This document shows, piece after piece, positions 4,497 to 33,007 of a stretch of DNA of 64,000 bases. The position numbers and the translations under genes are program-made. Positions within the stretch are counted from its first letter, which is position 1. The number at the start of each line of letters is the position of its first letter. The DNA comes from Bacteroidales bacterium. GTDB taxonomy: Bacteria; Bacteroidota; Bacteroidia; Bacteroidales; UBA1402. The notes under the pieces were generated by a model. The model saw only the letters and a program-made list of their open reading frames with translations, had not been told where the DNA came from and searched no databases. The DNA is taken from the NCBI GenBank assembly GCA_028709215.1, contig JAQVXI010000003.1, positions 16,949 through 80,948 of the forward strand, written 5' to 3'.

Positions 4497-4523
4497 AGTT
4501 GTAAGATTTTAAGTGGAATGAAT

Positions 4524-10508: not shown

Positions 10509-10527
10509 CGTCTTTGGGTATTCGAAA

Positions 10528-14811: not shown

Positions 14812-14827
14812 CGTTTTAGGTTTTTTA

Positions 14828-17109: not shown

Positions 17110-18747
17110 TTATTCTTGATGTGGCAGGAACCAGTTATCAGGATTACTCAAGAGACCAAAGACCTTGCTACGCAATCCAACGTCAAACTTAGAGGACACT
17201 TGGTTTGCCAGATACAGCGGATCTCTGCGTTTGGCAACGCGCATTAAGTCCGTAAATCGACCACCTTCAAAAGCCGTTTCCAAGGCCAATTCGGTCACAA
17301 TCTGATCTTCTACCCACTGAAGTGTATCAACCCCTGCCTCTATCGAATAACTTTTAAAAAACTTGAGTGTGCCACAACCCCTGCTATGCATCCCAATGTT
17401 CGAAGTAAATCGATCGATGCTCAGATTCTGTTGACCAAACTCCATATAATAAGGCACTCCAGTGCTGTCCGGTGTGTATTCTGAGGCTGGTACATAGAGA
17501 GGATTGTTTAACACTTCGGGGGTCAATCCATATTTTAGAACGGCAAACGCCATTTGATGTGCTCCCATACGATTGATTGCTTCCGCGTAGCGCAGATAAA
17601 CCGTACTGGAACGACAGAGGATATTGAAATTCTCAATGTTTTTGAATTTTGTCACGTACGAATACTGCGCATCGGTCAAACCGTCCGAAACCAATTTTGT
17701 TTCATACGAACCGTATGCGCCGCGCAAGTCGCCCGGCTTGGAGACCGTTGCATCGTAAGCATAGGTTTGATTTTCCCAATACTGGATGGCAACCGGAGTA
17801 GGACGTAGTACGTAATTCTCTTGAAACATATCGGGGAGCATGGTTGCATTGCCGGATGTTTCCGTTGTGTACGGAATGATTGAAATCATTTCGTTGTAGG
17901 TCGCCAAATTTCCAAAAATACGGGTCCAATTACGGGTCGAAACGTTGGTAAACGTAGGGCCGTTCCATGCGTTTGTAAGATTCAATACGGTAAGACGCTG
18001 ATTGTAGATCAATTCATAATACATCTGAGCGGCCAACGAGTATTCCTGCTTCCATAAATAAAGTTCACCCAGTACAAATCGTATGGGCATAAACAATTGC
18101 TTTGAGTTAAAGCTACCGATATTGCCGTAATCGGGCATCTGCTCCGGTTCATCCCAGGCAGCGGGCAAAAGCGGTGTCAAATCTTGAATCAACACATCCA
18201 ATAAGGCAGCTTGATTGAGCGTATCTGCCTCCACGACATCCCATGCATCCAAAACTGGTTGTGTATAATAATAGACTTCTCCATACAAATTACTCAATTG
18301 CAAATAAGCCCAAGCTCGAATGGTTTTCGCCTGTGCGTACTCATAGGTTAGTACCCTGCGCTGATCCACAACCAGACTGGTATCTATGGTTTGAATCAAA
18401 TAATTGCAATTATTGATTAACGCATACAAATCGCGTTCCATATGATAGGGATTCGCTGCATCGACTTCAAACTGGTACACATCCCTCAGTTCTTGCGAGG
18501 ACTGCTCGGTGACTTCCAGCAAGTCGCCCCTCAGTTCACTCAAAATCACGTATCGGTCACCCACTTGTTGAACGTTTTGTAGTATGCCCAGCATGGCATA
18601 AAACGCGGCACGTTGTGTATCAATGGCATCATCCTCAACCTTGACCAAACCGTTGGATTCCGTCTCAAAAAAGTCGGTGCATGATGCGCTCATTAAAGCC
18701 AGTGTCACACCCAATATATATCGAATCGCTTTTTTCATCGCTCTCAT
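17110..18747 (-). CDS. SusD/RagB-family glycan-binding lipoprotein (second pair)
   Basis: The start is taken as the ATG ending at 18747 (MRAMKKAIRY); the frame opens nine bases earlier at a TTG, and another ATG at 18738 is also possible. The lipoprotein signal ends in LMSASC, followed by TDFFETES. The helical part contains QAKTIRAWAYLQLSNLYGEVYYYTQP, the tetratricopeptide-like core of SusD proteins, and the C-terminal portion has STVYLRYAEAINRMG. The length is about 545 residues, normal for the family. It follows the divergent SusC (18758-21916) by ten bases and is co-transcribed with FAS1 lipoproteins upstream. It is expected at the outer leaflet of the outer membrane as the lid of that transporter. 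Confidence 0.93.
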   Translation of the reverse strand: MRAMKKAIRYILGVTLALMSASCTDFFETESNGLVKVEDDAIDTQRAAFYAMLGILQNVQQVGDRYVILSELRGDLLEVTEQSSQELRDVYQFEVDAANPYHMERDLYALINNCNYLIQTIDTSLVVDQRRVLTYEYAQAKTIRAWAYLQLSNLYGEVYYYTQPVLDAWDVVEADTLNQAALLDVLIQDLTPLLPAAWDEPEQMPDYGNIGSFNSKQLFMPIRFVLGELYLWKQEYSLAAQMYYELIYNQRLTVLNLTNAWNGPTFTNVSTRNWTRIFGNLATYNEMISIIPYTTETSGNATMLPDMFQENYVLRPTPVAIQYWENQTYAYDATVSKPGDLRGAYGSYETKLVSDGLTDAQYSYVTKFKNIENFNILCRSSTVYLRYAEAINRMGAHQMAFAVLKYGLTPEVLNNPLYVPASEYTPDSTGVPYYMEFGQQNLSIDRFTSNIGMHSRGCGTLKFFKSYSIEAGVDTLQWVEDQIVTELALETAFEGGRFTDLMRVAKRRDPLYLANQVSSKFDVGLRSKVFGLLSNPDNWFLPHQE

Positions 18748-18757
18748 TTTTTTCAAA

Positions 18758-21700
18758 CTACAGATTTAACTTAACGCCCAACGAAAAACTTCTTCCGGCT
18801 GATAACAAGCCGTTGTCAATACCTTGGTAGATTACAGAACCACTCACAGACGTTTCCGGATCGCTGCCCAGGTATCGGGACCAAGTGTAAATATCTGAAC
18901 AGGCCGCCCACACCGATGCACCTTGTAGGAACGAAGCCGTGATAGGCAACTGATAGTGCAAACGAATGTTCTTTAATTTCATATACGAACCATCTTCGAT
19001 CCAACGATCAGAGAAACGACTGTTTCCCAACGGATCTCCGTATACCGCTCTGGGCACATCCGTCACCTGACCCTCGTAACGCCAGCGATTGTTGACTGCG
19101 GCCGTTTGGTTGTGCAAAGCGGACATACTCTCTAAAGTTCTTCGCTGGTAATTGTATACATCGTTCCCTAAGGAATACGTACACAAAATTTCCATGCTCC
19201 ACGCCCCCAGTTGGAAGGTATTGCTCAAAGTGCCATAGACGTCCGGATTGGGATTGCCTATAATGGTACGGTCATTTTCATCAATTACGGTCTCTCCATC
19301 AAGACTGGTTTTCCCATCCCCCTGGTCGACAAAATGTACATCACCGGCAGCAAAACGACTGTACGTTCCGTTTAGGTTTTGCTTCACCAAACCAGCCGCT
19401 TCGGCTTCTTCAGAAGAAGCAAATACCCCCTTCGTTTTGTATCCGTAGAATACGGATGCCGGTTGTCCAACGGCGGTCAGAAGCTCGGCATCGTAAGCCT
19501 CGGTAACATAGTCACCGTTGGGTAATTCCAAAATCTCATTCTTGTAATGTCCAACGTTTAAGCCAGCATTCCATTTAAACCGTTCTCCGTTGTATGCAAT
19601 CAACTGCAAACCAAACTCATACCCCTTGTTGCTAAGCGATCCTGCATTGGTCAAATAACGATCCAGTCCGGATAAAAGCGGGGCTCGTTGGAAGGTCAGC
19701 AAATCACGCGTCACATGCTTATATACATCCACTTGAAGAACCATTCGTCCATCCCAAAAACCGACATCCACGCCCGAATTCCATTTGCTGGTTGTTTCCC
19801 ATTTCAAGCGTTGATTGGCAAGATTTCCAACCTCTTTGCCAATGGCATTACCCAGATACGTAACGGGAGAAAGATACCCGTAGCGTGCAATGCCGGACAA
19901 GTCATCATTTCCGCTCAAACCGACCGAAGATCGAAAGCGAAGCAATTCCACCTCCTGAGTAAGCTGCGGCAGCGATTGTTTCAAATCCAACATCAGTCCA
20001 ACCGAAGGGAAAAACCCCCAGTTCCCTCCCAACAAAGAGACCGATCCTGAGGAGGCCTCGCCAAACCGCGAGGAAGCATCGGTCGTTAGAGCGGACCAAA
20101 GATTGACCCACCGATCGTACACATATGTTACTTGACCATATAAGGATGCCGTATTCCATTTTTCAAGCGCGCCGTCGGTTTCAATAAAATCCAAACCGGT
20201 CGTCAGGTTAAACAAGTTGTTTCCGCCCGTGTTATGCCCTATCCCGACCGAATAGTCGTATCGATTGGCAAACACCCGAAATCCCATGGATCCCTGCAAG
20301 CTGTGGAGGCGGTCAAACTGCTTTTCAAACGAAACGTAGGTATCGTTGAATAAGGAGCTTTGTAATGCCGTTTGATCTTTGACCGTATTGTACGAGGTTC
20401 CTTTCCCTTCGATATACACCGGAGAAACACCATCCATTGGAGAAAAATAATGCTCTTTCAGGTTATCAATATAAAAACTAAACCGAGAGGACAAGGTCCA
20501 ATTTGGATGGAAGTCCCATTCGGGGGTAACCCCAATTCCAAATCGATATTGATTGTGTTGCCCCCGAGCGTATTCCTGCAAATACAAAGGGTTGGAAACC
20601 CCAAAATCATCCACAATTTCCAAGTTGTTTGTCAAGCCCTTTCCATCCGTAGTATACGCATAGCCCAACAAAAAAGGCGATTTAATCTGCGCAATGTAAC
20701 TGGGGGATGTGCGTTCGTTTACGCCATCGTCACGCAACTCCCGCTCTACCTGAGTAAAATAAATATCGGAGGCGACGCGTACCCGATCCAACAAATCAAT
20801 ATCGGAATTGATGCGCGCATTCAATCGTGAAAAATCGGTTCCAACCACCGTTCCGGTAGCTTGTGTATATCCGACAGAAATCGCATACCTAGCCATGTCG
20901 TCTCCTCCCTGCACACGCAAGCCATAACGTTGTGTGTTTCCGTTTTGAAAAACGAGTTCATTCCAATCCGTATTGTTATGGTATCGTTTATAATCCACGC
21001 CATTGGGATCCAAATCAAGATAGCCCTCAAACTCGCTGGAAAGCGCACTGGCTTCCGGACTTCCCTTCAACAATTCACTGATGTAAATTCGGTAGTCCTC
21101 GGCATCCAATACACTTGGAATGCGGGGTTGTTGCGACATTCCCAAAACCATGTCAAAATCAATTTTTGTTGCTTTCTCTCGTCCACGGTTGGTTTTGATG
21201 GAAAGGACTCCATTTGCCCCTTTGCTGCCATACAACGAACGGGCATCGCGAATAATTTCGACGGACTCGATGTCGTTTACGTCCAAACTCGTCAATGCAC
21301 TGAGCTGTATTCCATCATGTATGGAATACTTTCCGGCCGGTTGATCCCAAATCACCTCATCAACCACCAACAAGGGTTGCGCATTGGCATTCAACGATTG
21401 ATACCCACGAATAAACATATTTGAACCTACGGCCGAAGTAGCACTCCTGCGAATGCTTCGTACCGATCCGGACATGCGCAAACCAATTTCATCGTCCAGA
21501 ACCAACGCATCGGAGCGTTTAAACAGATCGTTTCGCTCTCGAATAGAAACGAAGAAATCTTCAAACAATCGGATTTCCAACGGTTCACGAAGGCGCTTGG
21601 TGTGAATTTCGACCATACGATCCACAAAACCATCCATGGAAACACGCAAGCTCGTACGGATACCCATCGGAACGGAGAGTGAGAATGAACCCTGCTCGTC

Positions 21701-21916
21701 CGTCAACACCGATCGTTCTTCAAACCAAACAGAGGCACCCAGCACCCCTTTGCCGGTTGCGGCATGGATGACAACGCCAGTTACCTGTACGTCGTCCTGA
21801 TTTTCTACCCGTGTTGTGTCTACGTAAGTATCCTTTTGGGACGCATCCTGCGCCCAAACGCTTGAACCCATACGTAGCACAATGGATAATGCGACTATTT
21901 TTGCTATCTTATTCAT
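18758..21916 (-). CDS. SusC-family TonB-dependent transporter, divergent (second pair)
   Basis: The 1052-residue protein has a signal peptide (about 1-23), a carboxypeptidase-regulatory-like domain (about 45-120, GVVIHAATGKGVLGASVWF), a plug domain (about 145-250, with DVNDIESVEIIRDARSLYGSKGANG) and a barrel. Three features set it apart from its neighbours: the usual VVVGYG box between the first two domains is replaced by a charged segment, the plug has VVDEV instead of the common VIDGV, and the barrel ends in leucine rather than phenylalanine. It still looks intact and functional. Its ATG overlaps the stop of the FAS1 lipoprotein gene in ATGAATAA, which suggests equal production of transporter and FAS1 partner. 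Confidence 0.93.
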   Translation of the reverse strand: MNKIAKIVALSIVLRMGSSVWAQDASQKDTYVDTTRVENQDDVQVTGVVIHAATGKGVLGASVWFEERSVLTDEQGSFSLSVPMGIRTSLRVSMDGFVDRMVEIHTKRLREPLEIRLFEDFFVSIRERNDLFKRSDALVLDDEIGLRMSGSVRSIRRSATSAVGSNMFIRGYQSLNANAQPLLVVDEVIWDQPAGKYSIHDGIQLSALTSLDVNDIESVEIIRDARSLYGSKGANGVLSIKTNRGREKATKIDFDMVLGMSQQPRIPSVLDAEDYRIYISELLKGSPEASALSSEFEGYLDLDPNGVDYKRYHNNTDWNELVFQNGNTQRYGLRVQGGDDMARYAISVGYTQATGTVVGTDFSRLNARINSDIDLLDRVRVASDIYFTQVERELRDDGVNERTSPSYIAQIKSPFLLGYAYTTDGKGLTNNLEIVDDFGVSNPLYLQEYARGQHNQYRFGIGVTPEWDFHPNWTLSSRFSFYIDNLKEHYFSPMDGVSPVYIEGKGTSYNTVKDQTALQSSLFNDTYVSFEKQFDRLHSLQGSMGFRVFANRYDYSVGIGHNTGGNNLFNLTTGLDFIETDGALEKWNTASLYGQVTYVYDRWVNLWSALTTDASSRFGEASSGSVSLLGGNWGFFPSVGLMLDLKQSLPQLTQEVELLRFRSSVGLSGNDDLSGIARYGYLSPVTYLGNAIGKEVGNLANQRLKWETTSKWNSGVDVGFWDGRMVLQVDVYKHVTRDLLTFQRAPLLSGLDRYLTNAGSLSNKGYEFGLQLIAYNGERFKWNAGLNVGHYKNEILELPNGDYVTEAYDAELLTAVGQPASVFYGYKTKGVFASSEEAEAAGLVKQNLNGTYSRFAAGDVHFVDQGDGKTSLDGETVIDENDRTIIGNPNPDVYGTLSNTFQLGAWSMEILCTYSLGNDVYNYQRRTLESMSALHNQTAAVNNRWRYEGQVTDVPRAVYGDPLGNSRFSDRWIEDGSYMKLKNIRLHYQLPITASFLQGASVWAACSDIYTWSRYLGSDPETSVSGSVIYQGIDNGLLSAGRSFSLGVKLNL

Positions 21917-23573
21917 TCGATTCCTTGGTTACAGGTTCAAATAAAATGTAATCTATTCTCATTGTTCGATTGTATACTGCCGTTTCAGCGGCTCTTACAT
22001 TGGTCATGATGCGGATTTTTACGTTGACCGTCTGTTTATCCGTTTCACTGAAAGGCGAGGTCGTATAATTCGCAAAAGGAAATGTAAAGTTTTTTGCGAC
22101 CAAAAAACGCGTCATTCCCCGACCGTTTGTAATAAAATCCACTCCATCCATCGAACGAATGGCTGCGTCTTCTTTCATACTCCCATCCGCATGTACGTAA
22201 TTCAGGTAAAACTGCAATTTCGTTACTTCCTCTGCTGCCAACGAATCATAGGCTTGTGGGGGAGCACAAACCACGTAAATGTTGTAGGTTGCAGCCAGCA
22301 CGTTCGGTATATCAAACGACACCTGAGGCTGAAAAAGCGCGTTCGTACTGGTCGGATTGACTTCCAAATACGATAAGCCGGAAACCGAATCGACAAATAC
22401 GGTTTCGACCGCTGATCGATTGACAATCGATGCATAGTTAAACGCACGTCCACTTTGTTGCTCTGCTTCAACCAATATGGGTTTATGCCAGGATTCAATG
22501 GGTTTATGCAGCAGTTTATCGACAAGATAGTACCGTCCGTTACTGGCCTCCACCGGACTGCTGGACTCAAACAAATACGAGGGATGATGGAACACGTTTC
22601 CGCTACTCGAAAACAGCGAATCGCCATCTACCTGATTGACATCAAAAACCTTTCTAAAAACCAGGTCTTGCACAAGAACCTCTTTGGTATGTGCACGTGC
22701 TATGGAATCGGCGATTGCATCCTCTGTCTGATAGGTTCTACGAACAATAATGGAAGAAGTGGATGAGTTGTCGGCAACCAAACGGCCAAAGGTTTTAAAA
22801 TAAGGTTCAATCCGGGAATAGGCCTCAACCCAGGCATTGTTTTTTGGAACAATCATGGTATAGATGCTGTCTTCCAAATAGACAAAACCAAAACGTCTCG
22901 CCCAATCGTTTCGATAATCAAACACGGAGTCGTAGACCGTTTGACCGTATTTGTTTTTTCCGATGGGTGTACTCCAGGTTGGCATAAACGTATACGTATC
23001 AAAACCGGAAAGATAGGAATACAGCGAATCCGTATCCGGACCTCCGGCAGTTCGTTCCCACAGGTTGTATAAGAATGGAGCCAACGCATCCATCGGATAA
23101 ATGATCGCATTTTTTGCGGGAATCCCCTTTTGCATAAAATCAATTCCTGCAAAACGCAGGGCTGAACCCTGACGTTCAAACCAGTGATATTTACCATTCA
23201 GCATTTGAATGCGCATACTGGCCGTATCCACCAAATCGTTTCTTCCATAAACAAACCGAGAAACATGATTCTTTATCAGTTGCTTTACTGTATGCTCATC
23301 GAGTGTATAGTTTGATAACGCCTGGTCCGTAGGAGCCCAGATGGTAAACGTTTGAGCACTCTGAAGCACGGAATCCATACCGGTCGCTTCCAATAGCGCA
23401 CAAAACTTGGTAAAATGCCCATCCTGACGCAAAACTTCCATCGCATTTTGTTGTGATTCCGTGGTCGTTTTCCCGTAATGTTCCTCCCACAGCTGATCCT
23501 GACAGGAAAAAAGGAGCGGTAGTCCCATCAAGACGCTGAACATCCATCGTTTATTCATTTTTTTCATATCCAT
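21909..23573 (-). CDS. FAS1 (fasciclin) domain lipoprotein, 554 residues
   Basis: A lipoprotein signal ends in LLFSC (cysteine at about residue 25). Two fasciclin-type domains follow; their H1-like motifs are FTIWAPTDQALSNY (about residue 80) and YTMIVPKNNAWVEAY (about 240), and the second closes with GRYYLVDKLLHKP. The last 190 residues (about 365-554) look like a beta-sandwich (PILVEAEQQSGRAFNYASI) that may bind carbohydrate. FAS1 domains are adhesion modules in many organisms. The gene begins with a TAATG junction to the upstream SusD and overlaps the downstream SusC by eight bases, so it is embedded between two SusCD pairs. I infer a surface glycan-binding role like SusE/SusF, but no such function is shown by the sequence. 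Confidence 0.85.
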   Translation of the reverse strand: MDMKKMNKRWMFSVLMGLPLLFSCQDQLWEEHYGKTTTESQQNAMEVLRQDGHFTKFCALLEATGMDSVLQSAQTFTIWAPTDQALSNYTLDEHTVKQLIKNHVSRFVYGRNDLVDTASMRIQMLNGKYHWFERQGSALRFAGIDFMQKGIPAKNAIIYPMDALAPFLYNLWERTAGGPDTDSLYSYLSGFDTYTFMPTWSTPIGKNKYGQTVYDSVFDYRNDWARRFGFVYLEDSIYTMIVPKNNAWVEAYSRIEPYFKTFGRLVADNSSTSSIIVRRTYQTEDAIADSIARAHTKEVLVQDLVFRKVFDVNQVDGDSLFSSSGNVFHHPSYLFESSSPVEASNGRYYLVDKLLHKPIESWHKPILVEAEQQSGRAFNYASIVNRSAVETVFVDSVSGLSYLEVNPTSTNALFQPQVSFDIPNVLAATYNIYVVCAPPQAYDSLAAEEVTKLQFYLNYVHADGSMKEDAAIRSMDGVDFITNGRGMTRFLVAKNFTFPFANYTTSPFSETDKQTVNVKIRIMTNVRAAETAVYNRTMRIDYILFEPVTKESNE

Positions 23574-25168
23574 TAATCTTCTTGTGAACGGTAAAATTCG
23601 TTTTGCTTCAATTCGGGATTGATGATCATTTGATCCTGATGTATGGGCAAATACCAGGCACCCAAATGGATCATTTTATTTTTGATCAAGGTTACGTCCG
23701 TATCGTATTTCTTCTCAATGTAATCCCATGTAGCAACGGTGCTGCCTTCTCGTCTGACCTTTCTTAACAAATCAAACCAACGCTTGCCTTCAAATAAAAA
23801 TTCCCTTCTTCTTTCTTCCAATACCAACTTCTGTACATCGGCGATGCTTGCATAGTCTGAGTAAACCAACGAATCCTTTACCTCCACGCCACTGGTGCAA
23901 GCTCTTTTGTATACAACGTTGACCAATTGCAGAACATGCTTCATCTCCTCATCCGATTGAGCGCGATGCGCGAGTGCTTCGGCTTTCATGAGGTATGCAT
24001 CGGACAATCGGTAAAAGATCCAATTCGCCTGATTGTTGGAGGCCCGATACGTATACGTTCCTCCGACAAAACTATTGCTGGGCGATTGCCCTTCGTACTT
24101 GAATACGTTGCCGGTCGAAGCTTCGATGTAATCTTTCCCCCGATAGTCGTAGTCTTCCTGATCTCCCGTCAAATGCAGATTGAAAAGACCCGGGACCAAG
24201 CTGTGGGCTTTTAGCTTTGGATTATTCCCTTTGTTCGGATTCCCGTAAATGGTCGATGTTGCGTTGTTTGGCTTCCCATTGGACGTAAAAACCAACTCAA
24301 AGATGCTTTCGGAGGAAACGCCGGAGTAAAAAACCTGTCCATAGTGTTCGTTGCCCGGGTGCATTTCCCACAGGGCAAATTCATCGGTCAATATGGCATC
24401 ACACAACACACTACAACTGTCGTAAGCTACTGTAGAAACGGCGGGGTTGTTTTGCTCGTTTATGGCCGCCTTCCACAAATAAATATCCGCCATTAAGGCA
24501 CGCACGGCATTCTTTGTGATTCTGCCTCTGTTATCCTGATCCGTTCCCCAATTGGTGGGAGCATATTCCAAGGCCTGTTTTAAATCACCCAGTAAGCGAT
24601 CGACGACAACAGCTTCTTTCGTTTGTGGGATGTTGTAATCCATGGCATCGTTGCTGCTGGATTGGGTTGTATACGGGATATCTCCAAAAGTTCTCAATAA
24701 ATAGAAATAAGCCAAGGAACGTAGGGTTAAGGCTTCCGACAAAAAGGCCTGTAACTCGTCTTCTCGAAAATTGTTATCCAGCTCCAAGACCTCGGGGGCA
24801 CGTTCGATGACACGATTACAAACATTGATTACTTCGTAAAAACCATCCCAACGGGTGAGTGAATTAGAGGATAAAATATTTGCCTCCATCAATTGCTTCT
24901 CGTCCGTTCCGGCTGCAGTTCCGGCAACCACGTTGTCCGAACGCATTTCACCCCACCACACAATGCGTTGCAGCACATCGTCTTCCTGCATCAAACGATA
25001 ACAGGACATGACCACCGATTCAACCTGAGAACGGTTTTTCCAGAAATCTTCTTCAACGGTGCGATCCTCAGGCAATAGGGTCAACCAGTCATCACAAGAC
25101 CCAAACAGCAATGGACTCAAACATCCAACAAGAACGAACGCTATTTTTTGTATGTACTTCATATGCAT
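23573..25168 (-). CDS. SusD/RagB-family glycan-binding lipoprotein (first pair)
   Basis: The 531-residue protein has a lipoprotein signal ending in LLFGSC and the acidic mature start DDWLTLLPEDRTVEEDFWKN, typical of SusD. The tetratricopeptide-like core contains LSEALTLRSLAYFYLLRTFGDIPY, and the C-terminal part has VLEERRREFLFEGKRWFDLLR, both strong family signatures. It follows its SusC partner by nine bases, and its stop codon shares a base with the next ATG (TAATG), coupling it to the FAS1 lipoprotein gene. The acidic residues after the cysteine fit the surface export signals described for Bacteroidota lipoproteins. Confidence 0.97.
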   Translation of the reverse strand: MHMKYIQKIAFVLVGCLSPLLFGSCDDWLTLLPEDRTVEEDFWKNRSQVESVVMSCYRLMQEDDVLQRIVWWGEMRSDNVVAGTAAGTDEKQLMEANILSSNSLTRWDGFYEVINVCNRVIERAPEVLELDNNFREDELQAFLSEALTLRSLAYFYLLRTFGDIPYTTQSSSNDAMDYNIPQTKEAVVVDRLLGDLKQALEYAPTNWGTDQDNRGRITKNAVRALMADIYLWKAAINEQNNPAVSTVAYDSCSVLCDAILTDEFALWEMHPGNEHYGQVFYSGVSSESIFELVFTSNGKPNNATSTIYGNPNKGNNPKLKAHSLVPGLFNLHLTGDQEDYDYRGKDYIEASTGNVFKYEGQSPSNSFVGGTYTYRASNNQANWIFYRLSDAYLMKAEALAHRAQSDEEMKHVLQLVNVVYKRACTSGVEVKDSLVYSDYASIADVQKLVLEERRREFLFEGKRWFDLLRKVRREGSTVATWDYIEKKYDTDVTLIKNKMIHLGAWYLPIHQDQMIINPELKQNEFYRSQED

Positions 25169-25177
25169 ATATTTGTA

Positions 25178-28100
25178 TCAAAAAGTCATGGATAGTCCCA
25201 CCGTCCAGTCTTTGGATCGGGGTGTTCTTGAATTGTCGTAAGCAACCCCCGTCAATCCAGAGGTGGATACTTCCGGATCCGTACCGGAATAGCGGGTCAA
25301 AATCAACAGATTATTCATGGTCAGGTAGCCGTTGGCTGACTTAAAACCAAAGGGTTTTACATACTTGGCAGGGATTCCATAACGAACCGTCACATATTTT
25401 AATCTCAAAAAAGAACCGTCTTCTACGTAACGATCACTACCCAGCCAATTGTATGCCTGTTGGTATACGGCTCTGGGGACATCGGTCACGTCTCCTTCCT
25501 TTCTCCATCGCCAATTGACACTGGTCGTTTGATTGTTGTCCTGATACATGTTTTCAGCATTCATGCGTGCACGGTTGACAATTTTATTCCCATAGCGGTA
25601 ATTGCTGAAAACAATCAGAGAGAGACCTTTGTATCGTGCCGTAAAACCAAAGCCGCCTTCGACTTTCGGGTTGGAATTACCCAAATAAACTACGTCGTAT
25701 TCATCGATCGAACCATCGTGGTTGATGTCTTCGTAAATGGCATCTCCCCCCTTAAACGCATACTTCGTGTTCTTATACCGATAATACATACGTTTGGGTT
25801 TGCCTTCATAGTCGGTTAGAATATTACCATCGACATCGTAAGCAATGGGTGCTGTTTTCCCTGAATTGAATGCCTTTTCGTAATTTTCATAGCTGTAAGA
25901 ATACACCCCTTTATAACGGAATCCGTAAATAGAACCATTGGAATTATCAGGTTGAATGCGACTTAAATAAACCCCGTTTCCTATGGAATTGGCTGCATCG
26001 TTGTACTGTTCCATGATGCTCTCATCAATGCTGACCAGCGTATTTCGGTTGTTTCCAATGTTTACGTTAAAGTCCATTGAGAAATCACCCGATTTGACCA
26101 AACGATTGGCTTCAAACTCCAACTCGTATCCCTCGTTGCGCATAGAACCCACATTTTTATAACTCAATGTAGCAAAACCGGATGTGGGTGAAATCTTGAA
26201 ATTAGACCACAACATATCGTTGGTTAGATTGTTGTAGGCATCCAGTTTTAATCGCAAATCGGCATCCCACAATTCCAGATCAATCCCGACGTTGTAACCT
26301 TCGGTACGCTCCCAACGAAGATTGGTCAATTGGATTTGTGTGGGATAAACTGCCGGCCGACCCAGGTAACCGTATTCATCCGGGCTGTACGTACTGTATT
26401 GCGAGTAATTGGCTGAGGGTTGTTGCCCGGTCACACCCCAGCCCGGACGAACGGCCAGTAACGTAACGATGTCGGCCCAATCTTCCATAAAGGCTTCGTC
26501 TGAAAGAATCCATTTGCCGGACAAAGAAGGGAATACCCCCCAGCGTTGATCTTTTCCAAACTTGGTACTTCCATCCACACGCATCGATCCGGATAAGATG
26601 TACTTCCCGGCATAACTGTAATGAAAGAAACCGGTTAGTCCCAAGGATCGTTGACTGGACATGCTGTTGCTTAAACTGCTCAAATAGCCCGTCGATGTGG
26701 CTGACGTGTACGAACTACCCGGATGTCCATACGATTGTATGTTCTGACTGAAACTCTTGGAAGAACTTGTTTGCAATACAAACGAAGACAAAAGGTTGTG
26801 ATGATCACCAAACGAACCTTTGTACTCCAATTTGTTTTCTGTTTGAACCGTCAGCTTTTCCGATCCTCCTTTGGTACTGACATTCACATCCTTATGGTCC
26901 CAATTGTAATTGGATACCTCAGAAGGCAAAAAGCGGTGGGTATTCATGTTGTTTTTATCCAACGATACATAACCCGAGTATCTCAAATAGAGGACATCCG
27001 GATCCGTGATGTAGTACTGCAATCGAACGGTTGGAACCACACGATAAGCCGATTCTTCGTTTTTGGCAAGATAGGCCAGCGCAACGGGGTTAAACAAATC
27101 GCGCTGTGAGGCATTTAGGTTTGACGTTTGTAGAATATTGTAATAGAATGGTGTATTGTTGCCTGCTTCATCCTGACGATAGATGCTGACGTTGGGCATT
27201 TTTCGGTATGCGATATCCAACAGATCCGAGTAATTCTTTTGGTTTTTATAATAGGTAAACTGAAATTCTGAGGTCACCTGCAATCGAGTGGATATGTTGT
27301 AATCCAGTTGAGAGCGATTGGTGATGCGATTGTACAACTGACCGATGTTTGTACCCTGCTGCGTTACGTATCCCCCGGATACACTAAACGAGGCACGTTC
27401 TCCTCCCCCGCTGATGCTGATGGAGTGATCGTGTGTCCAACCTTTTTGGGTGACCGCATCCATCCAGTTGGTGTTATTGTTAAACTGTTCGTATTCAGAC
27501 CACAGAGGATTGTAATTATATTCCTCACGATTGTATTGCTCGTAGGTTTCGTTTGCACCCAATGTTCGATTGAAGTAGGCTTGTTTCATCAACATTGTGT
27601 AATCGTCACCATTCAGCATGTTCATGCCTGCGGGTTGCGTCTTCTCTGTAAATTTGTAAGCATAGCGCACAATCGGCTTCCCTCTCGAACCACGTTTGGT
27701 CGTAATCTTAATGACTCCGTTGGCTCCTCGGGATCCATATATGGCACAGGAGGCAGCATCCTTCAATACATCAATGGATTCGATGTCACTGACATTGACT
27801 GTAAGCATGTCTGCAAACTGTTCGTCTGTTGCCGTCGAAAAATCAATTCCATCCACTTCCCCACTGAATATGATATCGTTTAGCACGATCAATGGATTCG
27901 CATTACCGGATAGGGTCGTTGTTCCGCGAATACGCATTTGAGATCCGGCACCCGGAGCACCGGAGGTACTCACGATGTCCAGACCCGGGATGCGACCTTG
28001 CAACAAATCCTCTGCAGAAGGGGCTGAAATGCCTTCGATGTTCTCACCCAGTTTTAAATGGCTGATGGAAGTCGAGAGTTCGCGTCTTGGCACCAAAGCA

Positions 28101-28474
28101 ATCCCTGTATTCTGGGTAGCTTGCGCAACAACGGTAGCTTCCGTCAAAATCTGGGCATCTTCAATCATTTCTACCAACAAGCGTTTGCCGATTTCGATGT
28201 TTGCATCGTAGGGTTTGAAGCCCATGTATTGAAAACGCAAACGGTTTCGATCGTTCTTAATGGTTAGCGCAAATTCTCCATCCATGTTTGAGATAGTACC
28301 GCTGACCAGACGATTGTTTGCATCAATCTCTGAGATGTTTACGCCGATCATTTCAAAACCGGTCGCTTTTTCGATGACCTTTCCTGTCACAATTTTTGAT
28401 TGAGCCGCCAACGTACCGACCCATAACAAAAGAAAACCTGTGACTGCTATTCTTATTTTCATATCGATGTTCAT
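25178..28474 (-). CDS. SusC/RagA-family TonB-dependent transporter (first pair)
   Basis: The 1098-residue protein has a signal peptide (about 1-25; an ATG four codons later is an alternative start), a carboxypeptidase-regulatory-like domain (about 28-105), a plug domain (about 135-265, with LLQGRIPGLDIVSTSG and IESIDVLKDAASCAIYGSRGANG) and a long barrel ending in phenylalanine. It lacks an N-terminal STN domain, so it is not the type that signals to FecR/FecI systems. It lies 12 bases after a four-domain FAS1 lipoprotein gene and nine bases before its SusD partner, giving the order FAS1-FAS1-SusC-SusD-FAS1. Confidence 0.97.
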   Translation of the reverse strand: MNIDMKIRIAVTGFLLLWVGTLAAQSKIVTGKVIEKATGFEMIGVNISEIDANNRLVSGTISNMDGEFALTIKNDRNRLRFQYMGFKPYDANIEIGKRLLVEMIEDAQILTEATVVAQATQNTGIALVPRRELSTSISHLKLGENIEGISAPSAEDLLQGRIPGLDIVSTSGAPGAGSQMRIRGTTTLSGNANPLIVLNDIIFSGEVDGIDFSTATDEQFADMLTVNVSDIESIDVLKDAASCAIYGSRGANGVIKITTKRGSRGKPIVRYAYKFTEKTQPAGMNMLNGDDYTMLMKQAYFNRTLGANETYEQYNREEYNYNPLWSEYEQFNNNTNWMDAVTQKGWTHDHSISISGGGERASFSVSGGYVTQQGTNIGQLYNRITNRSQLDYNISTRLQVTSEFQFTYYKNQKNYSDLLDIAYRKMPNVSIYRQDEAGNNTPFYYNILQTSNLNASQRDLFNPVALAYLAKNEESAYRVVPTVRLQYYITDPDVLYLRYSGYVSLDKNNMNTHRFLPSEVSNYNWDHKDVNVSTKGGSEKLTVQTENKLEYKGSFGDHHNLLSSFVLQTSSSKSFSQNIQSYGHPGSSYTSATSTGYLSSLSNSMSSQRSLGLTGFFHYSYAGKYILSGSMRVDGSTKFGKDQRWGVFPSLSGKWILSDEAFMEDWADIVTLLAVRPGWGVTGQQPSANYSQYSTYSPDEYGYLGRPAVYPTQIQLTNLRWERTEGYNVGIDLELWDADLRLKLDAYNNLTNDMLWSNFKISPTSGFATLSYKNVGSMRNEGYELEFEANRLVKSGDFSMDFNVNIGNNRNTLVSIDESIMEQYNDAANSIGNGVYLSRIQPDNSNGSIYGFRYKGVYSYSYENYEKAFNSGKTAPIAYDVDGNILTDYEGKPKRMYYRYKNTKYAFKGGDAIYEDINHDGSIDEYDVVYLGNSNPKVEGGFGFTARYKGLSLIVFSNYRYGNKIVNRARMNAENMYQDNNQTTSVNWRWRKEGDVTDVPRAVYQQAYNWLGSDRYVEDGSFLRLKYVTVRYGIPAKYVKPFGFKSANGYLTMNNLLILTRYSGTDPEVSTSGLTGVAYDNSRTPRSKDWTVGLSMTF

Positions 28475-28486
28475 TTGCTACCTGTA

Positions 28487-31024
28487 TTATTCAAAGCGTA
28501 GTACGTCTTCAATTTGATGCAAAACTCCATAAGAGTATGTTTCAATCTTATTGGCTGCAGTAGTATTGGATGCATTTACTACAATATCACGAGCCATCAG
28601 ATTGTACAAATCGTCGGATGTCAACACACGAACCGTTTGTCGTTCTGACATCGGTTTTTGAGCGTTGTAATAATCAGTCAAAACAATGGACGAACCATCC
28701 TGTTTTACGTAAATGGGGAAAAACTTATTGGTTGACTCATTCAAGGTTGCAGACAGATACGGCTCGCCATTGACCTCATTGCCTTTGAGGCATACGGCAT
28801 AGTCTTGAAAATGATAGCGAATAAACCGTTTGAGTTTCGATCTCAACGAGTCCGCCTTTTCAACAATGCTAATACCGGCGGCTTCTTCTTCGGGCGTCAG
28901 TGTCACGTTATTTATTGCGTCCAAACTGGGCATCAGACCTTCATCCCAGGCTTTTTGAATGGCAGCATTGGTCGGTACATAGATGGTATAATGGAATTGA
29001 TTGAGAAAGTCAATTTTATAATCCAGTGCACGCGTGGTACTTGTAGGGCTGGCAATAAAAAGCCCCATTTCGTTGCATATGTCGTAAAAGAGCTTGAATT
29101 TATCGTCCACGCTTCCGGCTACCGATGCACCCGCATGACGGGCCAACGTTTGATAAATGGAGGTTCGAGAGGGCTGTGCGATGCCGTTGATGTAATACGT
29201 AAAGCCATTGGTTTTCTCGTATACTTTTGTTACCTGCAGGGCTTGATCGTTGCCGGCACCTTGTACGGCAGTAATCGCATTGCCTTCCCAAAACAAACGT
29301 AAGGGAGCAAAGCCTTTTGTAATGTACCACTCCTGACCAGGGACCACATCACCCACCAGTGTTTGTTGATTGAGTATATCCGTCAAGCGACTCGTCAACT
29401 GACCGGATGTACCTCCACTGTTGTTAATTCCTATCGAGTCGCCCGTAGCCAAACTATACAACGTAGCTTGAATGGCGCTGTTCGCATTCAGATAAAAATC
29501 CCACGTTGCTCTTCGAGAAGTTGCATGTCCCATCGACACCGGATCGATGTAGTCTTTCATGTATTCATCCGGAGTTACAAAAAAGTGAAACGTACTTTTT
29601 AAGGAACGTAGGTAATATTGAAACTGACAATACGTATCTCCCATGGCCATGTTGAGTATTTTCATGCCTTGATCGATTTTGACCGGTCCCATGACCGAAC
29701 GGTAATCCAACGGAGGCAACACCTTATTGATGGTGTAAACCAAACCGTTTCTGCCAACAAAGCTGGATACGATGTTTTCTTTTTCGATCTCCATCTCATA
29801 ACCGGCCTCATCTTTGATGGTTTCAAATTGGCTGGGTAAGGATGCTATGAAAGAGGCTTTTTGATGATTGGCAACAAAGTCTGCAGCGATGTTGTCAGGC
29901 ACTTTTGACCAATCCCCATCAAAAGCAACATACAAATCGTACCCTTCAGATGATGGATCTTCGTTAAAATAGTCTTGCATGGCTTCATTATTGGGGACAA
30001 ACATGGCCGCCATGTCCATCTCAAATGCATTTTGATTGGTGGTGTTTGCCGAAGCAGCGTACAGATTCCAACCTGGGTCGTAATACAACAAACCCGGAGC
30101 GGCTTTGCCATTCAGATCCGTCGTCAGCGATCGACCCGTTTTCATCAAATCCCGATTAAAATACCTCAATTGATATACTTTTGTACCATCGGGGTCGGTA
30201 TCAAACAACATGGGTTGACAAAAACGATCCATCAATTGATTGAAGGTATTCAAATCCGGATTTCTCCGGATGTATTCGGCCATATTGTCTGGAGGGAACA
30301 ACAGACTACCCAATTCATGTAAGTAACCGTTTTTGCAGGTAATGTCCTTATGAATGATTTTGCTTCCAAAAACATAGGCATCCTCCTCTCCGGGTTTGAT
30401 GCCGGTAATGATTTGCATATCGTCGTCCGTAATTTTTTTAGCCTGCCGCACCTCAGGAAAAAACTGCACCATTGTCCATTGGGTTGCATCCATAAACATG
30501 GGCACCGTTTGATCCATAAACTCCGAAAAATAGGCATTTTTGGGCATTTCCTCATAGGCAACCAGGGGAATGGTGTCCGTAATATCCATCATGGTGGTTC
30601 GCCGAAAGAGAATTCCGCCTTTATCACTGTAACTCAACCGCTCAATCAACTGGGCATTACTCACCATACTGGATCGCAAAAGAAGCAACTTCATGGATAA
30701 GGGCATTTCTTCGTAAGAAGTAATGCCAGCCCGCCTGCCCGCATCCGAAGAAAAATACCGTTCAAAAGTAGAATCGGCTGAAAAGAACAGGGTATTACTG
30801 CCCGTTTTTTGCATGGTTTCCGTATACCCACAATCGTCTATTAATTGTACATAATAGTTGCAATCGCCGCGGTCTTTTAAATAGTTATAAATATTGTCTC
30901 CCAACCAATCCGGTTTTTGGTCTTCCAAGTAGGAAAAATGATCCTCACAGGCAAATAGTGTCAGAAGTAGCACCATCACTGCCGTCCACTTCCTAAAAAA
31001 TAATATAATCCCTTTATGTGTCAT
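28487..31024 (-). CDS. FAS1 (fasciclin) domain lipoprotein with four repeats, 845 residues
   Basis: A lipoprotein signal ends in LLTLFAC, followed by the acidic stretch EDHFSYLEDQ that fits surface export. Four fasciclin-type repeats can be recognised from their H1-like motifs: LFFSADSTFERYF (about residue 84), MFVPNNEAMQDYF (about 343), FFVTPDEYMKDYI (about 484) and IYVPTNAAIQKAW (about 684); H2-like ends include NGLVYTINKVLPP and YGVLHQIEDVL. A protein this long could reach well beyond the cell surface. It is the second gene of the minus-strand run, 12 bases from both neighbours. Its ligand is unknown. Both glycan capture and attachment to a surface are plausible. Confidence 0.85.
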   Translation of the reverse strand: MTHKGIILFFRKWTAVMVLLLTLFACEDHFSYLEDQKPDWLGDNIYNYLKDRGDCNYYVQLIDDCGYTETMQKTGSNTLFFSADSTFERYFSSDAGRRAGITSYEEMPLSMKLLLLRSSMVSNAQLIERLSYSDKGGILFRRTTMMDITDTIPLVAYEEMPKNAYFSEFMDQTVPMFMDATQWTMVQFFPEVRQAKKITDDDMQIITGIKPGEEDAYVFGSKIIHKDITCKNGYLHELGSLLFPPDNMAEYIRRNPDLNTFNQLMDRFCQPMLFDTDPDGTKVYQLRYFNRDLMKTGRSLTTDLNGKAAPGLLYYDPGWNLYAASANTTNQNAFEMDMAAMFVPNNEAMQDYFNEDPSSEGYDLYVAFDGDWSKVPDNIAADFVANHQKASFIASLPSQFETIKDEAGYEMEIEKENIVSSFVGRNGLVYTINKVLPPLDYRSVMGPVKIDQGMKILNMAMGDTYCQFQYYLRSLKSTFHFFVTPDEYMKDYIDPVSMGHATSRRATWDFYLNANSAIQATLYSLATGDSIGINNSGGTSGQLTSRLTDILNQQTLVGDVVPGQEWYITKGFAPLRLFWEGNAITAVQGAGNDQALQVTKVYEKTNGFTYYINGIAQPSRTSIYQTLARHAGASVAGSVDDKFKLFYDICNEMGLFIASPTSTTRALDYKIDFLNQFHYTIYVPTNAAIQKAWDEGLMPSLDAINNVTLTPEEEAAGISIVEKADSLRSKLKRFIRYHFQDYAVCLKGNEVNGEPYLSATLNESTNKFFPIYVKQDGSSIVLTDYYNAQKPMSERQTVRVLTSDDLYNLMARDIVVNASNTTAANKIETYSYGVLHQIEDVLRFE

Positions 31025-31036
31025 CGTTCTATCGTA

Positions 31037-33007
31037 TTAATGTTGGTCTTCCTCGTTCAACAAATCGACCGGCATGAACTCGATGTAGTCGAACAAACAA
31101 TTCCCGGAAAGCATTTGAACAAATCTCAACGAATGCGTCGTATTCTCAGTAAACGTATAGGTGCCTAGAATATATCTTAAGTCCAACGCTGAATTCCGGG
31201 CAGTACCAAAGTAATGACCGTAATCGTTGCGCCAGTTGGTACCGACATACGAATCGGGTGCCTTCATAAAGTTGCGATTTCGAATACTTTTGTCGTTCTC
31301 AAAGCCATAGGGATCTTCTGTATTATAGGGGGCATTTCGAGCCAACTGTGCACCGTTGTAGTTCTCTATCATGTAGTAATCCTGCTGCCATCCAATATCA
31401 CCGGACAAAGCAGACAAACGCATATCAACAGGAATGCCACAGGGTTGATCATCAAAATAGATTTGTGTAATACCACGAGATCCCGGACTTACATGATAAC
31501 CAAATCGCACCTCGTACTTACCCGCAGGAATAGGGCCAATCTTAAACGTTACATCAAAAAATCCATTTCCTTCCAATTCATCCCCGTATAAATAATGGTG
31601 TACGTTGGCTGCGTGATAAACCATATATACCGATGGACGCTCTTCTTTGAATTCCAAATTTTCACAATATCCTTCCGGAATGTACCGATGCCACTGGTTG
31701 TATTTATTGCCAAAAGCAATTACATCGTTGGTAATCAACTCGGGCAAAAAAGTACGCAATTCCATGCGCAACCTTCGGTGTAGAACCTGATATTCCACAT
31801 AGTCGTCGTAGGCCATCAGACGATTCAGTGTATGTACGATCCCGTTTTGACAATCCTTGTTGCTTTCTGCATGAATAAAACGGATCACATCGTTGCTATT
31901 TGCCAAGCCCGGTTCCACAAAGGGGTTGCGTGTGGTGTTGATGAGGTTGCCTTTTTGACATTGGATCAAAGTACCCGGAGCCAGAGTAGGCCAGTATTGT
32001 TCAATCGTATATTTTCCATCGTAACAGATGTCTTCTTTTCGCCCAAACCAATCGTGTTCGGAGACATACCCGTAGGTTGTCACAAAAATATCGGTGGTTA
32101 CAAATGCGGGAATAAAATGGTAGGCGACAAAGTGATTGAGGCTATTCTGTGGGTCTCTTTCGTCATCCACGTCTGATTTCCCCAACTTTCCATACACCTC
32201 TTTGGCATAGGCACGCATGTCATCCAAATCTTCAATCCCGTGCAGGGCTAATATGGAATCGGTTTCCAACAAGGCCGTCCATCCGTATTTTTTGGAGTCC
32301 GGATACTTGTCCCGTTGAGACATGGGTGCCCCGTTGGGAAGCGTTTTGGGCTGAACGTAGGATTCGTCTTCGATCAGTAGCATTTTATCCCACAAGCCTG
32401 TCGCCTTAAGCGCCTCTGCATACAGCGTATATTGCCCATCGGACTCAATCAGTTCCGGAAGCAGGTCATCGTTGCCTTTTAGAACTTGGTCAATCACGTG
32501 TACAATTCCGTTGACCATTTCAAGGTCACCGTCTACAATGTTGACTGTTTCGTTGATGTGCCACTGAAGATTTTCAAAGTTTGTATACAAATACCGTCCA
32601 ACCATATTCTTTGTCGGAATGGCTCCAACCTGAAAATCGTAGGTATTGTATGCTTTGGATGCATTGGTTTCTCCATCAATGAAATGGTAGTAAATCAATT
32701 TCTTTAGCTCCTTCATCGACAAGGTGTCCGGATCAAGTGGAGCCGTCTCATAGTACTCAAACAGGGCATCATTGGTCGGTAAAAACAAGGTATACTTACC
32801 ATATGACTTCAACAAATTGTACACATCGGCCTGCTTCATCAACCTGGAAAACTCCGAAAATTGCTCCGTATTGTTATCCAGATAATTCGAGATCATTTGA
32901 CCCTCAAAGGTTGTATAGGCATCCCCAACGTCGTCTGAGTCTACACACGATGTCCATAGAAAAAGGCAGATGAAGAAGCCCCCTATCAAAAAGAATTGTT
33001 GTTTCAT
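31037..33007 (-). CDS. FAS1 (fasciclin) domain lipoprotein, first gene of the PUL run
   Basis: The lipoprotein signal ends in FLWTSC, followed by VDSDDVGDA, an acidic surface-export-like stretch. The first FAS1 domain has LFLPTNDALFEYYE (about residue 77) and ends with NGIVHVIDQVL. The second has YGWTALLETDSILALHGI (about 245) and ends with NGIVHTLNRLMAYDD (about 390). The C-terminal part (about 460-640) is a predicted beta-sandwich (VTFKIGPIPAGKYEVRFGYH) resembling carbohydrate-binding modules. Being first in the 30-kb run, its upstream region 33008-33091 should hold the promoter, but I see no good TAnnTTTG element there. Confidence 0.86.
   Translation of the reverse strand: MKQQFFLIGGFFICLFLWTSCVDSDDVGDAYTTFEGQMISNYLDNNTEQFSEFSRLMKQADVYNLLKSYGKYTLFLPTNDALFEYYETAPLDPDTLSMKELKKLIYYHFIDGETNASKAYNTYDFQVGAIPTKNMVGRYLYTNFENLQWHINETVNIVDGDLEMVNGIVHVIDQVLKGNDDLLPELIESDGQYTLYAEALKATGLWDKMLLIEDESYVQPKTLPNGAPMSQRDKYPDSKKYGWTALLETDSILALHGIEDLDDMRAYAKEVYGKLGKSDVDDERDPQNSLNHFVAYHFIPAFVTTDIFVTTYGYVSEHDWFGRKEDICYDGKYTIEQYWPTLAPGTLIQCQKGNLINTTRNPFVEPGLANSNDVIRFIHAESNKDCQNGIVHTLNRLMAYDDYVEYQVLHRRLRMELRTFLPELITNDVIAFGNKYNQWHRYIPEGYCENLEFKEERPSVYMVYHAANVHHYLYGDELEGNGFFDVTFKIGPIPAGKYEVRFGYHVSPGSRGITQIYFDDQPCGIPVDMRLSALSGDIGWQQDYYMIENYNGAQLARNAPYNTEDPYGFENDKSIRNRNFMKAPDSYVGTNWRNDYGHYFGTARNSALDLRYILGTYTFTENTTHSLRFVQMLSGNCLFDYIEFMPVDLLNEEDQH

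Follow-up and report, generated by a model that had tools for sequence, protein, structure and literature searches.

The 64,000-nucleotide stretch of Bacteroidales DNA analysed here (the window) carries three FAS1 lipoproteins and two SusCD pairs in one tight array of seven genes on the minus strand. Together these genes probably encode one outer-membrane machine of the utilisome type, which would capture and import a branched, uronate-rich plant polysaccharide, at this locus most likely a pectin, with FAS1A and FAS1C as surface glycan-binding proteins (SGBPs). Behind this reading stand the gene content, the conservation of the array as a unit, the co-divergence of its genes, the lipoprotein signals, the FAS1 folds, the CBM-like fold predicted in FAS1C and the asymmetry between SusC1 and SusC2. 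We infer the substrate and the assembly of the products into a single complex.

Gene array and FAS1 lipoproteins

The genes of the array are listed in order of transcription.

FAS1A: 31037..33007, minus strand, 656 aa; lipoprotein with two FAS1 domains and a C-terminal domain (DUF5108 position)
FAS1B: 28487..31024, minus strand, 845 aa; lipoprotein of four FAS1 domains
SusC1: 25178..28474, minus strand; SusC/RagA TonB-dependent transporter of the class with a TonB-box-like sequence
SusD1: 23573..25168, minus strand; SusD-like lipoprotein lid
FAS1C: 21909..23573, minus strand, 554 aa; lipoprotein with two FAS1 domains and a predicted C-terminal CBM-like beta-sandwich (BT4167 position)
SusC2: 18758..21916, minus strand; divergent SusC/RagA barrel with no recognisable TonB box
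SusD2: 17110..18756, minus strand; divergent SusD-like lipoprotein

Gaps of 12 bases separate FAS1A from FAS1B and FAS1B from SusC1, with 9 bases between SusC1 and SusD1 and a single base between SusC2 and SusD2. SusD1 and FAS1C overlap by 1 base (TAATG), and FAS1C and SusC2 by 8 bases (ATGAATAA). The first-pass annotation had described the order FAS1-FAS1-SusC-SusD-FAS1-SusC-SusD with gaps of 12 bases or less and both of these junctions, and its genes and coordinates hold.

All three FAS1 proteins matched PF02469 above the cut-off of 22 bits (FAS1A, 77.2 bits, E 1.6e-21; FAS1B, 41.1 bits, E 2.5e-10; FAS1C, 52.4 bits, E 7.9e-14). The folds of FAS1B and FAS1C were assigned from AlphaFold2 models searched with Foldseek, and that of FAS1A by profile only. 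The FAS1B model (pLDDT 86) contains four repeats and aligns end to end with the four-FAS1 protein TGFBIp/periostin (828 columns, E 7e-23), while the FAS1C model (pLDDT 82) contains two FAS1 domains (E 2e-13 against TGFBIp). An alignment of FAS1A with FAS1C spans both FAS1 domains (hhalign 99.9%). The FAS1 folds were thus recovered in both modelled proteins, and the eight fasciclin domains originally counted are supported as four, two and two. FAS1B shares its fold and four-repeat arrangement with TGFBIp, periostin and other four-FAS1 proteins; however, these are eukaryotic matrix proteins with ~12% identity to FAS1B and no transporter partner.

In the FAS1C model, the C-terminus resembles CBM22/MiXBM (Foldseek, E 2.8e-5 to 5.4e-4) and is predicted to be a CBM-like beta-sandwich. 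As FAS1C ends in such a domain, the FAS1 domains are perhaps not the binding arms that had been proposed at first, and the FAS1 pairs may instead be a spacer or dock. The C-terminal domain is the least conserved part of FAS1C, which fits substrate specificity but fits loss of constraint equally well. Among FAS1A relatives, PF02469 was found in 30/30 and DUF5108 (PF17133) in 9/30; DUF5108 was not detected in the FAS1A of the window; elsewhere in that genome, two modules have it.

A lipobox cysteine is present in each FAS1 protein of the window, as expected from the lipoprotein signals initially noted in all three. Its contexts (CVDSDD, CEDHF and CQDQL) place acidic residues shortly behind the cysteine in each of the three proteins; the first-pass annotation had noted such residues directly after it in two. 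Among relatives, Cys21 of FAS1A and Cys26 of FAS1B are invariant lipobox cysteines; overall, the lipobox cysteine was found in 99/101 relatives of FAS1A, 43/45 of FAS1B and 116/116 of FAS1C, and 74-87% of the relatives of the three proteins have an acidic residue at +2 to +5, a surface-lipoprotein signal. By gene neighbourhood and by their signals for lipidation and surface export, the FAS1 proteins match this part of the definition of an SGBP.

Conservation of the module

The genome of the window (2.6 Mb) contains five such modules, which together hold every FAS1 match of that genome. To sample more widely, 80 loci were chosen by SusC2 sequence alone. SusD2 directly follows SusC2 in all 80, and in the 76 loci where the upstream neighbour could be assessed it was FAS1C every time (76/76). 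The five copies and this adjacency put the arrangement far beyond chance. The first-pass annotation had named merely sporadic co-occurrence of FAS1 genes with SusCD as one outcome that would refute a composite machine; co-occurrence is not sporadic, and the idea survives.

Complete modules most often have the order FAS1B-SusC1-SusD1-FAS1A-FAS1C-SusC2-SusD2 (91/95), with a median intergenic gap of 14 bases, and this order recurs across Bacteroidales families and in other orders of the class Bacteroidia. One locus (L034) was tallied as having FAS1A last solely through an extra FAS1A copy, and the gene seemingly missing from each of L115 and L129 probably reflects ORF picking, in which a long reverse-strand frame was chosen. 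The window departs from the common order in having FAS1A at the front instead of between SusD1 and FAS1C, and from gene order we take it to be a rearranged copy of the common module. This departure is what might be expected of a chance neighbourhood or recent shuffling, with FAS1 and SusCD functionally unlinked. However, in a genome with nine modules every gene pair co-diverges (r 0.89-0.94, p at most 0.0005), without swapping among all seven genes; this co-divergence, the 76/76 adjacency and the survey as a whole refute that explanation, to which we give practically no credence.

A probable studied relative and the likely substrate

The RG-I locus of B. thetaiotaomicron, BT4163-BT4169 (PUL BT4145-4183), is very probably a relative that has already been studied. 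There, BT4167 is reported to bind RG-I and lies between the SusCD pairs BT4164/65 and BT4168/69 (PMC8002723), and a DUF5108 protein is encoded within BT4164-69 (PMC10434189). BT4169 is followed by BT4170, just as the module of a Bacteroides-genus genome (G158, locus L168) has a BT_4170-like RG lyase directly after SusD2. Gene order, annotation and this neighbouring lyase suggest that BT4167 is likely the equivalent of FAS1C, and BT4163 would correspond to FAS1B. The window has the same gene set, but its FAS1A is relocated to the front and lacks a detectable DUF5108, and its enzymes differ (GH28, a GH43-PL chimera and an orphan 754-aa protein). The initial statement that no characterised example was known is thus probably wrong, given the match in order, DUF5108 annotation and adjacent lyase. 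In the literature searched, none of the papers calls the RG-I locus proteins FAS1, and a search for fasciclin or FAS1 with SusC/SusD gave no description of the module.

Two other candidates were rejected. The RG-II locus BT1024-1030, considered as the characterised example, has a BT1026 annotated as DUF4957 (PMC10434189). The HG locus (BT4112) and DUF5123-associated loci were considered as having the same design, and the latter resemble the module in pairing a Bacteroides pectin-type SusC-SusD with a lipoprotein; however, the DUF5123 loci examined have a single SusCD pair and no FAS1, and their SusC1-profile scores are low (322-596, compared to ~800-1800 for module SusC1).

The genes that follow the array in the window are given below.

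Secreted protein of 754 aa, without known family: 14828..17092, minus strand, 17 bases after SusD2
Multidomain enzyme: 11926..14847, minus strand; alginate-lyase-like (PF05426), fn3, DUF1349 and GH43 domains, assigned by Pfam
Enzymes with a right-handed beta-helix: 7769..11922, minus strand; three in number, of which two are GH28 (polygalacturonase-type)

The 754-aa protein has no Pfam or NCBIfam match. Its gene is probably in the same operon as the module, but was rejected as an eighth conserved gene because no relative was found in any module locus examined. The beta-helix enzymes matched PF00295 (the two GH28 enzymes, E 2.9e-8 and 2.8e-13) and PF13229 (E 1.8e-9). Overall, the enzymes encoded around the array in the window are of the GH28, GH43, PL-like and GH51 types, and a hybrid two-component sensor is encoded there too. 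Modules of the genus Bacteroides lie beside RG-I lyases (PL9, PL11), GH105, GH106 and GH2. As flanking enzymes vary between modules, from pectin sets to xylan sets, the substrate cannot be read from the module itself; at the window locus, the flanking enzymes point to pectin as the most likely substrate.

Glycan binding by the proteins of the window is something we infer from the precedent of BT4167 and the CBM-like fold. FAS1 domains are classically adhesive (PMC6032426), and the FAS1 proteins could instead be adhesins for plant cell-wall particles or other cells, co-transcribed with the importer but outside glycan import, a role to which the end-to-end resemblance of FAS1B to TGFBIp and periostin would be suited. 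We regard this as improbable, since the module FAS1 proteins are tied to one SusC class and co-diverge with it, FAS1C has a CBM-like domain, BT4167, its likely homologue, is a reported SGBP for RG-I (PMC8002723), and those FAS1 proteins of Bacteroidales that have no SusCD group apart and are more canonical.

Two SusC classes and a composite importer

Both transporters exceed the TIGR04056 cut-off of 368.25 bits (SusC1, 684.6; SusC2, 516.2), and each belongs to its own class: SusC1 scores 1734 bits against the SusC1-class profile, and SusC2 scores 1544 bits with its class-specific profile versus 426 for SusC1. SusD1 matched PF07980 (E 9.3e-24) and PF14322 (E 2.3e-19). The PF07980 match of SusD2 is weak but above cut-off (E 5.3e-7; 30 vs 23.1 bits), and SusD2 scores 740 bits against its class profile; a lipobox is found in 110/111 SusD1 and 123/123 SusD2 relatives. 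An EVVV-type TonB-box motif is present in 48/111 SusC1 relatives and in 0/126 SusC2 relatives, whose scores equal the shuffled background, while 31/32 comparison SusCs score above it. SusC2 may carry a degenerate TonB box.

In the proposed machine, SusC1/SusD1 would be the TonB-energised importer, and SusC2/SusD2 a second, specialised barrel with its lid. This second pair, which is always co-inherited with the first, would either join SusC1/SusD1 or take in a second class of fragment. FAS1A and FAS1C would be surface glycan-binding lipoproteins in which the lipid-anchored FAS1 pair forms a stalk or dock and a CBM-like C-terminal domain (presumed in FAS1A) grips the glycan, and FAS1B, which has four FAS1 domains but lacks a CBM-like one, may be a scaffold or spacer. 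The starch Sus system (SusC, D, E, F, G) likewise has additional lipoproteins, at the SusE/SusF position, but their folds are unlike those of the module, and it has a single SusCD pair and no FAS1. Unit conservation, co-divergence, surface signals and flanking enzymes support the early suggestion of a composite import machine in which FAS1 proteins take the SusE/SusF role.

A likeness in protein design is seen in the levan and dextran utilisomes (SusCD, SGBP and surface GH), with multidomain lipoprotein SGBPs in which anchored spacer domains precede a glycan-binding domain; the levan protein has two Ig-like domains and a glycan-binding domain (PMC7618045). However, these are homodimers of one SusCD type with one SGBP and one enzyme, whereas in the module the two SusCD pairs are not equivalent, the FAS1 lipoproteins number three and no enzyme is included. 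As known SusCD complexes are homodimeric (PMC7618045), the operon may encode two separate homodimeric utilisomes for different fragments of the same polysaccharide, one formed by SusC1/SusD1, FAS1B and FAS1A and the other by SusC2/SusD2 and FAS1C. This is a serious alternative, though we hold it to be less than an even chance. FAS1C invariably adjoins SusC2, 11 modules in some lineages have lost FAS1A and kept the remaining genes, and single-pair SusC-SusD-FAS1 loci exist (L207, L208, L211 and L216). However, the SusC1 and SusC2 classes were never found apart in loci long enough to tell, the seven genes co-diverge without swapping, and the lack of a detectable TonB box in SusC2 would be odd for a stand-alone importer.

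More tentatively, and in our view rather unlikely, the single machine could be an obligate heterotypic importer, with TonB-boxed SusC1/SusD1 and box-less SusC2/SusD2 held in one asymmetric complex by the FAS1 lipoproteins. If so, SusC2 would not be an energised transporter but would serve passively, as a gate or docking partner, the rule that SusCDs are homodimers of one energised pair would be broken, and FAS1 domains would gain a new role as a scaffold for bacterial glycan import.

Where pectin loci have SusCD pairs in tandem, simple redundancy is the usual explanation. Here, two distinct SusC classes stay linked to each other and to three FAS1 lipoproteins, in about nine copies within one genome; this argues for one integrated machine instead, and we judge the module to be a conserved, under-described variant of the SusCD utilisome. 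To our knowledge, FAS1 domains are widespread and their roles in bacteria mostly unknown. The module makes direct tests possible, both of SusC1/SusC2 heterodimer formation and of the ligand of the FAS1 domains, and an integrated machine of this kind would also attach a function to DUF5108 and to numerous proteins with fasciclin domains from gut and rumen bacteria.

A seven-gene FAS1/SusCD module

The array of fasciclin (FAS1, PF02469) lipoproteins and SusCD pairs reported in the first-pass annotation is real, and lies on the minus strand of the window.

17110-33007, minus strand: array, in transcription order, of FAS1A (656 aa), FAS1B (845 aa), SusC1, SusD1, FAS1C (554 aa), SusC2 and SusD2

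The intergenic gaps of 12 bases or less, the TAATG junction and the ATGAATAA overlap are all present as first described. Each FAS1 protein scores above the PF02469 cut-off, and each has the lipoprotein signal claimed for it; acidic residues come after the lipobox cysteine in all three. Five modules are found in this genome, and every FAS1 match of the genome falls inside one of them.

FAS1 is present in 33 of 148 Bacteroidales genomes, and the loci retrieved are of two kinds, those with FAS1 inside the module and those with FAS1 without SusCD (L054-L062), the latter mostly more canonical. When a species-representative collection was searched using the SusC2 profile only, 80 loci were obtained, and SusD2 follows SusC2 in 80/80. 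FAS1C is the gene upstream of SusC2 in 76/76 loci where that gene is covered, so the pairing of FAS1 genes with SusCD, on which the first-pass proposal depended, is not sporadic. Across 126 loci we see a median gap between module genes of 14 bases and 95 complete modules, 91 of which have the order FAS1B-SusC1-SusD1-FAS1A-FAS1C-SusC2-SusD2; the exact seven-gene order also occurs in all eight high-scoring SusC2 loci from other orders of the class. Among the named hosts are Bacteroides nordii, Paraprevotella clara, Xylanibacter rodentium, Maribellus sediminis and Geofilum rubicundum. One Bacteroidota module (L136) stands under a record titled Roseburia sp., the bin being in all likelihood mislabelled or contaminated.

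In the window module the gene order is permuted, with FAS1A moved to the front. Only here does FAS1A (31037-33007) open the operon; the common order places it between SusD1 and FAS1C. In two further modules a single gene has moved to the last position, FAS1B in L043 and FAS1A in L044. A lineage lacking FAS1A (L086, L094, L098, L099, L102, L105, L109, L130) has a FAS1B of ~1000 aa where nearly complete, as if a domain had been absorbed. L209 has a reduced six-gene form without FAS1C (FAS1B-SusC1-SusD1-FAS1A-SusC2-SusD), and L036 is apparently similar. In L207, L208, L211 and L216, a single SusC-SusD pair is followed by one FAS1 protein of ~480 aa and two genes of ~255 aa; this simple version may represent the module's ancestral form.

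When nine modules of one genome (G098) were compared, divergence ran in parallel for every pair of the seven gene families (r 0.89-0.94, permutation p at most 0.0005), and therefore parts are not swapped between paralogous modules. For the five modules of genome G000, r was 0.73-0.96 for gene-family pairs, with p limited by the small module number.

Domain architecture and surface signals

The eight fasciclin domains first proposed are supported as 2+4+2 (FAS1A, FAS1B, FAS1C) by good AlphaFold2 models of FAS1B (mean pLDDT 86) and FAS1C (mean pLDDT 82) and by profile alignments, which alone give the FAS1A count. FAS1B aligns with the four-FAS1 proteins TGFBIp and periostin across 828 columns (E 7e-23). 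FAS1C comprises two FAS1 domains (TGFBIp match, E 2e-13), both of which align with FAS1A (hhalign 99.9%), and a C-terminal β-sandwich best matched by CBM22 xylan-binding modules and MiXBM (E 2.8e-5 to 5.4e-4), and also by an alginate-binding CBM (9e-4). The C-terminus of the FAS1A profile gives a weak MiXBM match (E 0.0075), and Pfam also finds DUF5108 in 9/30 FAS1A relatives. The FAS1 pairs are slightly more conserved than the C-terminal domain, notably in FAS1C (0.40 and 0.39 vs 0.34), a small difference that is in line with FAS1 domains serving in docking and the tip in specificity.

An acidic residue soon after the lipobox cysteine resembles the surface-export signal of Bacteroidota. The cysteine is found in FAS1A (99/101), FAS1B (43/45) and FAS1C (116/116), with an acidic residue at +2 to +5 in 86/99, 34/43 and 86/116, respectively. 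SusC1 and SusC2 form distinct classes, with profile scores of ~800-1800 for their own class vs ~330-700 for the other. SusC1 retains an EVVVTA-type TonB box (strict motif in 48/111), weaker than that of ordinary SusCs, 31/32 of which score above shuffled background. The motif was found in 0/126 SusC2 proteins, with scores at shuffled background; SusC2 may still carry a degenerate TonB box.

Substrates and a probable relative in the RG-I locus of B. thetaiotaomicron

Beside the window module lie two GH28s, another β-helix protein, a GH43/alginate-lyase-like chimera, a further SusCD pair, a GH51 and a hybrid two-component sensor, and from these flanking enzymes we infer a pectin-type locus. Individual neighbours are as follows.

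2583-7697, same strand: third SusCD pair, of neither SusC1 nor SusC2 class, adjoining three β-helix/GH28 genes
11926-14847: unusual 973-aa chimera (alginate-lyase-like domain, fn3, DUF1349, GH43)
14828-17092: secreted protein of 754 aa, unmatched in Pfam and NCBIfam and without relatives at any module locus; given its position between SusD2 and the chimera, possibly a new enzyme family
33136-36975: weakly FIVAR-like protein of 1279 aa, immediately upstream of the module; none of the other module loci has a relative of it

Elsewhere, modules adjoin RG-I enzymes (PL9, PL11, GH105, GH106, GH2) or glucuronoxylan enzymes (GH115, GH98, GH10, GH43). The design is common to the modules and the substrate differs between them.

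According to a review, B. thetaiotaomicron binds RG-I with the surface glycan-binding protein (SGBP) BT4167, cleaves it with the lyase BT4170, and takes it up through BT4164/BT4165 and BT4168/BT4169 (PMC8002723). In an RNA-seq table, the annotations given for BT4164-69 are SusC, a DUF5108 protein, hypothetical proteins and a TonB receptor (PMC10434189). In the module L168, from a genome of the genus Bacteroides (G158), a BT_4170-like RG lyase directly follows the module (PF16380, 312.6 bits), and no other FAS1A matches DUF5108 as strongly as the one here (403 bits). Taken together, these data indicate that BT4164-4169 very probably correspond to SusC1-SusD1-FAS1A-FAS1C-SusC2-SusD2, with BT4163 as FAS1B and FAS1C as the counterpart of the RG-I-binding SGBP, an assignment drawn from gene order, published annotation and the lyase beside L168. 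The first-pass view that no characterised example is known is thus probably wrong, as one module member has probably already been studied, as the SGBP BT4167.

A proposed composite import machine

Machines of SusCD with SGBPs are already known as such. The literature searched gave no description of SusCD-linked lipoproteins as FAS1 proteins, and both the constancy of the seven-gene unit throughout the class and the non-equivalence of the module's two SusCs are apparently undescribed there. The SGBP of the levan utilisome is built as Ig-Ig-binding domain (PMC7618045), to which the FAS1-FAS1 stalk and C-terminal domain of FAS1A and FAS1C may be likened. In our proposed mechanism, these C-terminal domains, held on the stalk, would most likely catch the polysaccharide, FAS1B would act as a scaffold, SusC1/SusD1 would be the importer, and SusC2/SusD2 would be a specialised partner.
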